Source: Zavarzinia sp.
GTDB lineage: Bacteria > Pseudomonadota > Alphaproteobacteria > Zavarziniales > Zavarziniaceae
Direction: 5' to 3'
Length of the DNA stretch: 34,017 nucleotides
NCBI GenBank assembly: GCA_025869435.1
Contig: JAOZVS010000139.1
Coordinates: 1 to 34,017, forward strand
The notes under the pieces are model-generated. The model was not told the DNA's origin, made no database searches, and saw only the letters and a program-made list of their open reading frames with translations. Positions 3,885 to 12,729 of the stretch are shown here, piece after piece. The position numbers and the translations under genes were made by a program. Position 1 is the first letter of the stretch. The number at the start of each line of letters is the position of its first letter.

Positions 3885-3940
3885 TATCGCAGTGTGGCCG
3901 ACATGCTGGTACACTCGCCGGCATTCAAGGGGGGAACCTG

Positions 3941-4585
3941 ATGGCCATGGATCGTTCGTTTCTGAGCCGCTATCTCGGCATCGCGCCGTCGACGCGGGAG
4001 GAAGGCGTGTTGCGCCTGCTGCTCGAGACGGCGATTCGCACGGTGGACGCGGCCGAAGGCTCGGTCCTCGCCTATGACCGCGATGCCAACGACCTGCGCT
4101 TCGTCATGACCGTGAACGGCCCGTCCAGCCTGATCGGCCAGCGCGTTCCGATCGGCGCGGGCCTGACCGGCCTCGCCGCCCTCACCCATGAAGTCCAGAT
4201 CGGCGCCCCCACCTTCAAGACCGTCGATGATTGCAACCAGGCGACCGGGGTCGAGGGCGAGCCCAGCGCCGTCATCGCCGCCCCCATGGTTTCGGGCGAT
4301 ACGCTAATCGGCGTGCTGACCGGCGTCCGCTTCAAGCCGGGCTACCGTTTCACCACCGATGATGGCCGGGCCTATGGCAATTTCTCGACCATCGCCGCCC
4401 TGATGCTGGACCAGCACAGCCGCCTGCGCGAACTCTCGGGCGGCACCGGCGATGTCACCACCGCCGGCTTCGGACCGGAGGAGGCACGCATCATGGCGGC
4501 TGTCGCCTCGGTCGCGCGCAGCCGGCCGGACCGCCTGCCCCGCCTCGCCCAATTGTTCGAACAGATGGCCGATATCGCCATCTGA
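3941..4585 (+). CDS. GAF-domain protein, first gene of the protease/exporter cassette
   Basis: Soluble protein of 214 residues. Residues about 15-155 form a GAF-type sensory domain: a helix with LLLETAIRTVDAAEGSVLAYD, then the GAF-like RVPIGAGLTGLAA and SAVIAAPMVSGDTLIGVL strands. The remaining 60 residues are helical with no recognisable output domain, so the ligand and partner are unknown. The start at 3941 is chosen because AAGGGGGG lies 5-6 bp upstream; an extension from 3881 lacks support. It is followed after 12 bp by the S8 protease gene and then by an overlapping ABC exporter gene, so it may be the sensor or regulator of that pair. That role is inference from position only. Confidence 0.85.
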   Translation: MAMDRSFLSRYLGIAPSTREEGVLRLLLETAIRTVDAAEGSVLAYDRDANDLRFVMTVNGPSSLIGQRVPIGAGLTGLAALTHEVQIGAPTFKTVDDCNQATGVEGEPSAVIAAPMVSGDTLIGVLTGVRFKPGYRFTTDDGRAYGNFSTIAALMLDQHSRLRELSGGTGDVTTAGFGPEEARIMAAVASVARSRPDRLPRLAQLFEQMADIAI

Positions 4586-4597
4586 TCGGCCGCGCCC

Positions 4598-5365
4598 ATG
4601 TCCTCCGTCGCGATTACCGAAGCCACGGCCGCCCGATTCGACGAACTGGCCGCGAGCGATCTCGCCCCGGTCGAGGTCGCCGTTATCGATTCCGGCATCG
4701 ACGCCACCCATCCCGACCTCGCCGGCCGCGTCGTCAGCCAATGGACGGTCGAGGACGAGGAGGGCCGCCTCGCCGTCCATCCCCTCGAAACCGGCATCAA
4801 CAACGATACTTTCGGCCATGGCACCGCGGTCGCCGGCATCATCGCCCGCATCGCGCCCAATGCCCGCATCCACGACATCCGCGTGCTCGACGCCCGCAAC
4901 AAGGGCGATCCCACCGCCTCCCTCGTCGCCTTCCGCCATGTCCTCGCCCAGCGCCTGCGCCTCATCAACATGAGCCTGGCCATTCCCGCCTCCCAGCGCG
5001 AACCGCTCTTCAAATTGTGCGAAAGCGCCTATCAGCGGAACCAGGTGGTGGTCGCCGCCAAGCGCAATGTTCCCGTGACCGACGAAGGCCTGCCGGCGGA
5101 ATTTTCCAGCGTCATCTCGATCGACAATCATCAGGTCGAGCCGATGAGCCTGCATTTCATCGAACAGGGCCTGATCGAATTCGCCACCCTCGGCAACGAC
5201 CTGACGGTGCCCGCCCCCGGTGGCGGCTACACGGTGAAGACCGGCACCAGTTTCGCGACGCCGACGGTCACCGCCATGTGCTGCCTGTTCCTGGGCCGCT
5301 GGCCGATGCTTCGCCAGTTCGAGCTGAAAACCATTCTGAAAGCCCGCGCCCATGGCCATGTCTGA
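4598..5365 (+). CDS. Subtilisin-like (S8) serine protease without signal peptide
   Basis: Peptidase of 255 residues with the complete S8 triad: Asp31 in VIDSGID, His74 in GHGT, and Ser218 in GTSFATP. The expected oxyanion Asn region reads VVVAAKRN (Asn157) instead of the usual AAGN, an uncommon form. There is no signal peptide, propeptide or C-terminal extension, so it is probably cytosolic, unlike secreted subtilisins. It is shorter than most S8 enzymes. No clear ribosome site precedes the ATG, which suggests coupling to the GAF gene 12 bp upstream. Its last 14 bp overlap the exporter gene. Such an arrangement is reminiscent of leader proteases paired with peptide exporters, but no precursor peptide was found. 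Confidence 0.9.
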   Translation: MSSVAITEATAARFDELAASDLAPVEVAVIDSGIDATHPDLAGRVVSQWTVEDEEGRLAVHPLETGINNDTFGHGTAVAGIIARIAPNARIHDIRVLDARNKGDPTASLVAFRHVLAQRLRLINMSLAIPASQREPLFKLCESAYQRNQVVVAAKRNVPVTDEGLPAEFSSVISIDNHQVEPMSLHFIEQGLIEFATLGNDLTVPAPGGGYTVKTGTSFATPTVTAMCCLFLGRWPMLRQFELKTILKARAHGHV

Positions 5366-7403
5366 CGGACCGCCGCCCGGCCCCGGCGCCGAGAAGAAAG
5401 CCCCGCCGCCCCAGGGCATTCCCCTGCCATTGGCCGGCGCCCCCAAAGGCGCCCCGCCCCCCGGCGCGATGCCGCCCGGTGGCATGAAGGGGCCGGGCGG
5501 CCCCGGCTTCCCCGGCCTGCCTTTTCCGCCGGAGCCGATGAAGTTCTCCAAGCTGCTGCGCTGGGCGGTGATGCTGGCGAAATCGGCGCCGCTGCCCTTC
5601 CTCGCCTCGGTCGGGCTCGCCGCCCTGGTCAACGCGCTCACGCCCTATACCCAGCAGGTGCTGGTCTCGCTGACCGGGGCGCTGGAAGGCAAGGGCACGG
5701 CCGATCCGAAGATGATGGCCCTCCTCTATGCCGTGCTCGCCGTCGTCGTCATCCTGCTGTCGATGGCCAGCAAGCTGGTCACCACCTGGTCGAACGAGAA
5801 GATGCTGGTCGCGCTGCGCCATCTGCTGCACGACCGGATGCTGCTGCTCGGCCCGCAGTTCCACGGCAAGGTGACCGGGCCACAGCTGGTCCAGATCATC
5901 AATAATTTCTCGGCCGGGGCGCAGTTCACCTTGCGCGAAATCCTGGCCTATCCGCTCACCCGCGGTGTCGGCCTCGTCACCGCCGGAATTTTCCTCGCCG
6001 GCAATCTGTCGGCCTTCGCCGGCATTCCGCCGCTGGCGCGCTGGATATTGCTGGCGCTCGTCGTGATCATTCCGCTGATCGGCTGGAAACTGTCGGGCGT
6101 CGTCGGCCGGGCCTTCGAGCAGGTCCGGGCCGAGGAAGCGGCCTTCGCCGACGAATTGGGCAATTCCACCGCCCAGCCCCTCGAAGTCCAGCTGATGCGC
6201 GCCCAGGCCCAGCGCTCCCGCTCGATCGGGGAGCGGCTGCAGTCGGTGATGGCGGCCAAGCTGCGCGCCACCCTGCGGCGCGAGGCGGCGCAGCAGTTCC
6301 AGGGCTCCATGTCGGTGATCCTGACCACCGTCCTCCTGATCTATGCCGCCTTTTCCTTCGACGCCAGCACACCCGTGGGCGCCCTGCTCGGCCTTATCCT
6401 GATGGTGCCGCTGGTCGTCGGGCCGATCCAGGAACTGGTCACCTTCTTCACCGGCCTTTCGGTCAACTGGCCGATGATCCGCCCGGTGGGCGAGATCATC
6501 GACGCAAAACCTGAAATCGCCGACGCCCGGGATGCCGCCGATATCGCCATCGCGGACCCGGTGGCGGAATTGGCGAATGTCACCTTCGGCTATCCCCCGG
6601 CCAAGACCCCGGTGATCCTGAACGGCGTCTCGCACCGCTTCCGGGCGCAGGCGATCACGGCGATCGTCGGCGGCTCGGGCTCGGGCAAGAGTTCGGTGAT
6701 GCGCCTCCTCGTCCGGCTGTATGACCCGCAAGGGGGTGTGGTCACCATCGGTGGCCGGCCGCTGACCGCCTATACGCTGGAATCCCTGCGCCGGCAGGTC
6801 GTCACCCTGTCGCAGTTTCCGTTGATGCTGTCGGGATCCTTGCGCAAGAATTTCGAGCTGGTGAAGCCGGATGTGAGTGACGACGAAATCCTCGCCGTGC
6901 TGCGCCGGGTCGGCGTGCTCGATGCCCTCAACCGGATCCGGCCCGAGGGTGTCCTCGATATTCCGGTGACCCAGGCGGCCGGCACCGGCACCCTGTCGGG
7001 CGGCCAGCGCCGGCTGGTGGCGCTGGCCCGCGCCCTGATCCTCGCCCCGCGCATCCTGCTGCTCGACGAGCCGTCGACCGGCGTCGATGTCGAATCGACC
7101 TCGCGCCTTGTCGCGGTGCTGCGCGAGTTGTCGCGCGAGGTGACGATCATCATGGTCGAACATGACGTCGATTTCGTCACCGCCGTCGCCGACGAAGTGG
7201 TCTGTATCGAGAACGGCCAGTTCGTCTCGGCCGGGGCGCCGCAGGCGCTGATCAGCGCTGGCGGCAATCTCTTCGCCCGCTTCGTCGAAGCCCGCCGCCG
7301 GGCCACCTCGACCGATCACCTCGATATCGAGCGGGTGCCGCTGCCGGCCATCGCCAAGGGCGGGAAAGGCCCGGCTTACCCCCCCGGTGCCAGCAACTCG
7401 TAG
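5352..7403 (+). CDS. ABC exporter (fused membrane and ATPase domains) with Pro/Gly-rich N-terminus
   Basis: Half-transporter of 683 residues. Residues 1 to about 62 are low-complexity Pro/Gly/Ala with PPPGP, GAPPPG and FPGLPFPP runs. Residues about 70-360 hold the six-helix exporter domain. The ATPase domain follows, with Walker A at 440-447 (GGSGSGKS), signature LSGGQ at 548-552, and Walker B ending in Asp572-Glu573; the VEHD histidine switch is also present. It should be active as a homodimer. The substrate is unknown. It overlaps the S8 protease gene by 14 bp; a second ATG lies at 5358. There is no peptidase C39 domain, consistent with a separate protease supplying any cleavage. The 3' end overlaps the convergent monooxygenase gene by 28 bp. 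Confidence 0.92.
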   Translation: MAMSDGPPPGPGAEKKAPPPQGIPLPLAGAPKGAPPPGAMPPGGMKGPGGPGFPGLPFPPEPMKFSKLLRWAVMLAKSAPLPFLASVGLAALVNALTPYTQQVLVSLTGALEGKGTADPKMMALLYAVLAVVVILLSMASKLVTTWSNEKMLVALRHLLHDRMLLLGPQFHGKVTGPQLVQIINNFSAGAQFTLREILAYPLTRGVGLVTAGIFLAGNLSAFAGIPPLARWILLALVVIIPLIGWKLSGVVGRAFEQVRAEEAAFADELGNSTAQPLEVQLMRAQAQRSRSIGERLQSVMAAKLRATLRREAAQQFQGSMSVILTTVLLIYAAFSFDASTPVGALLGLILMVPLVVGPIQELVTFFTGLSVNWPMIRPVGEIIDAKPEIADARDAADIAIADPVAELANVTFGYPPAKTPVILNGVSHRFRAQAITAIVGGSGSGKSSVMRLLVRLYDPQGGVVTIGGRPLTAYTLESLRRQVVTLSQFPLMLSGSLRKNFELVKPDVSDDEILAVLRRVGVLDALNRIRPEGVLDIPVTQAAGTGTLSGGQRRLVALARALILAPRILLLDEPSTGVDVESTSRLVAVLRELSREVTIIMVEHDVDFVTAVADEVVCIENGQFVSAGAPQALISAGGNLFARFVEARRRATSTDHLDIERVPLPAIAKGGKGPAYPPGASNS

Positions 7404-10089: not shown

Positions 10090-12729
<2,640 letters not shown>

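Follow-up and report, generated by a model that had tools for sequence, protein, structure and literature searches.

A GAF–subtilase–ABC transporter cassette conserved in Zavarziniaceae and its possible role in coupling cytosolic proteolysis to export

What might a GAF-domain protein, a subtilase that apparently stays in the cytosol and an ABC half-transporter do together, when their genes lie packed one behind the other on a Zavarzinia contig? The window, by which we mean the whole stretch of 34,017 nucleotides that was analysed, is contig C138 of a draft Zavarzinia genome (75% complete); among species with a name, Z. aquatilis and Z. marina are its nearest relatives. The cassette comprises the following features:

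3887..3916, + strand: promoter-like element TCGCAG-N11-YGCTGNTACACTC with the extended -10-like TGNTACACT, kept ahead of the GAF gene
3941..4585, + strand: GAF-domain protein, 214 aa (Pfam GAF_2)
4598..5365, + strand: S8 subtilase, 255 aa, predicted cytosolic (Pfam Peptidase_S8)
5352..7403, + strand: ABC half-transporter, 683 aa (Pfam ABC_tran and ABC_membrane)

A cassette kept together in Zavarziniaceae

The preliminary description of this DNA had pointed to three tightly packed genes, and re-measurement in the window agrees with it, giving a gap of 12 bp between GAF and S8 and an overlap of 14 bp between S8 and ABC. On the 5′ side, a GGDEF gene ends 92 bp before the GAF start, and on the 3′ side, an opposite-strand gene overlaps the end of the ABC gene. 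The GGDEF gene was considered as a further member of the cassette and rejected, as it lies upstream in the window and in Z. marina only, with 34% identity. Genes for the F0 ATP synthase precede the cassette in the window and in several relatives.

The order GAF-S8-ABC is kept in all six Zavarzinia genomes searched as well as in one genome of a sister genus; at one of these loci (G003) the contig stops within the ABC gene. With aligned start codons, the gap between GAF and S8 is 12 bp in the six Zavarzinia genomes, against 10 bp in the sister genus, and the overlap between S8 and ABC is 14 bp at all four loci where it was measurable. Across all conserved loci dN/dS lies between 0.07 and 0.46 (within the genus and relative to the window, 0.07–0.24 for GAF and S8, 0.12–0.27 for ABC), which indicates that the cassette is under purifying selection. 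The recurrence of order, spacing and dN/dS in the relatives argues that the grouping of these genes is more than chance. Furthermore, the S8 and ABC genes were never found apart within Zavarziniaceae. The best explanation for the arrangement would be that the three genes form a single transcription unit.

An upstream element, TCGCAG-N11-YGCTGNTACACTC, lies at fixed spacing ahead of the GAF gene in 6/6 Zavarzinia genomes. A genome-wide search returned one exact site per genome, always ahead of GAF, while other element-like sites carried two or three mismatches and occurred at about the rate of a reversed control pattern. Since the pattern was derived from its own sites, only its absence elsewhere counts as a test. 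We infer a resemblance to an extended -10 promoter; a search for the sigma-70 consensus gave no match.

Several peculiarities of individual loci were noted along the way. In one relative (G005; locus L020, reversed, near 10640-10700), a one-base shift near the first transmembrane helix interrupts the ABC reading frame; it is either an assembly error or a real break. At L019:11728-15322 and the matching positions of L017 and L020, the cassette is followed on its 3′ side by a TPR gene in convergent orientation, a regulator of the Crp type and a TPR-S/nucleotidyl-cyclase protein, none of which is present in the window; in the sister genus, the TPR gene is kept directly behind ABC.

Beyond the family, no match to the GAF protein at E < 1e-15 was found outside the genus among 398 sampled Pseudomonadota, and none to the ABC protein at E < 1e-70 outside the genus in 337 genomes of the class, with the best three candidates per genome scored. 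The sampled class yielded no trio outside Zavarziniaceae. The lack of outside matches to GAF or ABC makes the gene order a trait of Zavarziniaceae and not of Rhodospirillales at large, such that the question of a conserved order, which the preliminary description had posed for Rhodospirillales, is answered with yes within the family (six Zavarzinia and the sister genus) and with no for the rest of the sampled class. A scan of genome contigs with the S8 alignment likewise returned Zavarziniaceae only, with peptide patterns that came from Zavarziniaceae themselves.

The three predicted proteins

The subtilase belongs to PF00082 (Peptidase_S8; E=2e-20, 73.7 bits, cut-off 21.8). Its complete catalytic triad (Asp31, His74 and Ser218), as read in the preliminary description, aligns with that of subtilisin BPN′, as does the oxyanion residue Asn157, and all four are invariant in seven orthologues. 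The reported absence of a signal peptide and a propeptide was confirmed as well: no hydrophobic N-terminal segment was seen, and with a catalytic domain beginning at about residue 25 there is no space for both. The best PDB matches are variants of subtilisin BPN′ with the calcium loop deleted, and the calcium-site-A loop (9 residues) is missing from the S8 alignment. With a full catalytic set and neither secretion signals nor this loop, the protein has the features of a subtilase suited to the low-calcium cytosol. The best curated match is QhpE (NF049966, 85 bits), to which we return below.

The ABC protein matches Pfam ABC_tran (E=7e-27) and ABC_membrane. Its hydrophobic peaks, at about 75-97, 121-139, 197-225, 232-250, 316-336 and 341-359, fit six transmembrane helices, and the nucleotide-binding domain follows after residue 420, with a Walker A motif (GGSGSGKSS) and LSGGQ. 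The best PDB matches (about 214 bits) are ABCB-type exporters, and both halves of full-length proteins are matched. The matches include the model of the peptide transporter TAP2, and also MsbA and multidrug exporters; none of the matches is family-specific in a way that would favour peptide over lipid or drug. No C39 peptidase domain was matched in Pfam, in line with the earlier view of an exporter lacking a peptidase of its own. The protein is thus predicted to be a homodimer-type, ABCB-like exporter without peptidase. Its first 62 residues form a low-complexity tail rich in Pro, Gly and Met. The corresponding DNA (window 5352-5537) encodes a hypervariable Pro/Gly/Met/Lys-rich stretch whose length varies by species.

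The GAF protein (GAF_2, E=1e-8, 36 bits against a cut-off of 28.6) consists of a single GAF domain and a C-terminal helical tail at residues ~160-214, and is 69-97% identical to its counterparts in six relatives. Structure predictions from five-row alignments were of low confidence, with a mean pLDDT of 53 for S8 and 46 for GAF.

Relatives of the subtilase in other phyla and in the qhp system

The nearest S8 proteins outside Zavarzinia, found by tblastn against plasmids, are encoded on large replicons of two species, Miltoncostaea oceani of the Actinomycetota and Gemmatirosa kalamazoonensis of the Gemmatimonadota. They have 250-252 aa, and each S8 gene is followed, with an overlap of 4 bp, by a gene for a GAF protein that is 160-212 aa long. 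A maximum-likelihood tree of 54 rows puts the Miltoncostaea, Gemmatirosa and Zavarzinia S8s on one side of a branch with support 100/99, and every member of this clade lacks the calcium-site-A loop. Because the GAF neighbour was seen only after the S8s had been picked by S8 similarity, its adjacency is independent evidence. Taking an S8 of this clade with an adjoining GAF gene as our definition of an S8-GAF pair, the Zavarzinia cassette contains one, and such pairs recur in three phyla, the evidence outside Zavarziniaceae being a small sample of two lineages. No further pairs were found among the Pseudomonadota searched.

The pairs differ in their surroundings. In Miltoncostaea and Gemmatirosa, S8 precedes GAF, a sigma-factor gene lies directly 5′ of S8 and no ABC gene adjoins, whereas in Zavarzinia GAF precedes S8, an ABC gene adjoins and there is no sigma gene. 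In Gemmatirosa, two TPR-CHAT genes lie 3′ of the pair. Since the pairs of the other two phyla do without an ABC gene, the exporter would not be required for the pair's basic role. The sequence comparisons suggest that GAF is the oldest and steadiest companion of S8, that this pairing predates the ABC partner, and that the ABC gene was probably added in Zavarziniaceae and locked in by the overlapping genes. In Miltoncostaea, an 88-aa Os1348/NHLP-like protein is encoded just past the pair (L072:7563-7829) and may be a substrate of that pair; it scores E=3e-8 and 33.5 bits against model NF038399, below the cut-off of 40.

A second comparison is offered by QhpE, a cytosolic subtilase that cuts the QhpC leader before export via the ABC transporter QhpF in the maturation of quinohemoprotein amine dehydrogenase, and that acts only once per molecule (suicidal, single-turnover) (PMC7876137). 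Like the Zavarzinia S8, QhpE is small and cytosolic, lacks a signal peptide and the calcium-site-A loop, and is encoded next to an ABC exporter gene. In our class search, six genomes carried a QhpE over the cut-off, an ABC gene adjoined it in 6/6, and the other S8 loci examined had no adjoining ABC gene except in Zavarziniaceae. Thus, S8 beside ABC is a rare arrangement with one understood meaning.

However, the Zavarzinia protein was rejected as a QhpE. Its 85 bits against NF049966 compare with a curated cut-off of 165 and with 211-231 for the six QhpE proteins of the class. In the tree, the QhpE clade (100/100) is separate from the S8-GAF clade, and a joint clade of Zavarzinia and QhpE was rejected (p-AU 0.012). 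QhpD over cut-off was found in 6/6 QhpE-positive genomes and in none of the seven genomes of Zavarziniaceae, five of which reach a completeness of 92% or more; PF08992 (QhpC gamma subunit) had no match in eight genomes, where no positive control matched either. Gene order differs (ABC then S8 in qhp, S8 then ABC in Zavarzinia), the qhp operon includes substrate and modifying genes (qhpC, qhpD, qhpG) that the Zavarzinia cassette lacks, and the qhp system has no GAF gene. The Zavarzinia ABC protein is only distantly related to QhpF (phmmer 70-127 bits) and not closer to it than to ABCB exporters. Finally, the oxyanion Asn is absent from six QhpE sequences and kept in the Zavarzinia S8, which suggests a difference from single-turnover cleavage. 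For the QhpE proteins themselves (loci L066-L071), the loss of the canonical oxyanion-hole Asn in all six may explain the reported single turnover.

By analogy, the cassette may work in a manner resembling QhpEF without being part of that family, and neighbouring S8 and ABC genes have also arisen apart from the qhp system. The impression that no described system has this make-up must accordingly be qualified: a search of the open-access literature gave no account of either the trio or the S8-GAF pair, while QhpE-QhpF, the nearest known analogue, had been overlooked.

What the cassette may do

We consider it about evenly balanced whether the cassette couples cytosolic proteolysis to export in some form under the control of GAF. 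The GAF protein would bind a small molecule and switch or scaffold the protease, S8 would cut a cytosolic polypeptide encoded outside the cassette, and the ABC protein would carry the cleavage product to the periplasm. Cleavage followed by export is proposed by analogy with QhpE-QhpF, where the adjacency of S8 and ABC has this known meaning. The coupling is supported by a gene order and spacing that seven genomes share, the purifying selection and the cassette-specific upstream element; by the S8 clade with its GAF-adjacent relatives (100/99), in which the calcium loop is lost, and the presence of Asn157; and by the best scores of the ABC protein to ABCB-type exporters, with the TAP2 model among the matches. 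As a counterpoint, membership in one operon does not by itself imply a common pathway.

Among eukaryotic organelles, the ABCB half-transporters Mdl1, HAF-1 and TAP serve in proteolysis-coupled peptide export. A protease acting ahead of an ABCB-type half-transporter would be the common theme with Zavarzinia, whereas the proteases are others and no GAF partner is involved. In bacteria, PCAT (C39) exporters and LanP proteases tie leader cleavage to ABC export, and LanP is usually secreted or surface-bound. The Zavarzinia ABC protein has no N-terminal C39 peptidase domain in Pfam and hence is not a PCAT, and a precursor is absent from the cassette.

Maturation of a ribosomal peptide (RiPP) by the cassette is nevertheless possible. 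In its specific form, S8 would remove the leader of a dedicated peptide or protein subunit encoded elsewhere, which ABC then exports as in QhpE-QhpF. The qhp precedent and the NHLP/Os1348-like protein beside the Miltoncostaea pair speak for such a substrate, yet we regard it as somewhat unlikely. The earlier observation that no small precursor is visible nearby stands, the neighbours in the window being the GGDEF gene and the overlapping opposite-strand gene, and neither precursor, leader family nor modifying enzyme was found in or beside the cassette in seven Zavarziniaceae genomes. NF038399 (NHLP/Os1348) had no match over cut-off in these genomes (best E 0.027), and QhpD, the companion of every QhpE control, is missing. 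A precursor locus co-regulated through the upstream element was also sought and dismissed, with no second exact or one-mismatch site genome-wide. Furthermore, the presence of the cassette in every genome of the genus, and near F0 ATP synthase in several, makes it look core and not like a sporadic peptide cluster. Of the proposal of peptide processing and export, there thus remain the conserved unit, the QhpE-QhpF precedent and the RiPP-like protein of Miltoncostaea; a precursor, leader or modifying enzyme at the cassette does not.

A family of Sec-signal repeat proteins was considered as dedicated substrate and rejected, since it is multi-copy and missing at the window locus. Its members, found in Zavarziniaceae at L016:10720-13623 (-), L019:3745-6522 (+), L017 and L018 plus paralogues, have a beta-rich N-domain of ~230 aa followed by a variable number of ~96-aa Leu/Gly-rich repeats, with no Pfam match over cut-off. 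A copy lies just 5′ of GAF in four relatives.

Alternatively, S8 and GAF could be a regulatory protease that cleaves a regulator in a signalling module, with ABC as a passenger or as exporter of an unrelated lipid or toxic compound. The genes directly 5′ of the Miltoncostaea and Gemmatirosa pairs encode ECF-type sigma factors, kinase or TPR-CHAT genes are near, and MsbA and multidrug exporters are among the matches of the ABC protein. However, the 14 bp overlap at every measurable Zavarzinia locus, the inseparability of S8 and ABC in the family and the lack of a sigma gene at the Zavarzinia cassette make this an unlikely account. An anti-phage or other conflict system is very improbable indeed: the matches to subtilase and IetS models are weak and generic, so that we rejected a defence label, and although TPR-CHAT genes adjoin the Gemmatirosa pair, there is neither a defence-specific match nor a defence island, and every genome of the genus has the cassette beside core genes.

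Returning to coupled proteolysis and export, one may speculate, as a less likely reading, about a phylum-crossing module in which GAF gates a dedicated cytosolic subtilase, and in which the link to an ABCB-type exporter in Zavarziniaceae turns an internal metabolite signal into exported peptides. To our knowledge, a role has been established for very few cytosolic subtilases. Zavarzinia isolates exist (Z. marina, Z. aquatilis), so that direct testing is feasible. A conserved subtilase-GAF pair found in three phyla, with which an exporter is associated in one of the lineages, points to an unexamined form of ligand-controlled proteolysis.
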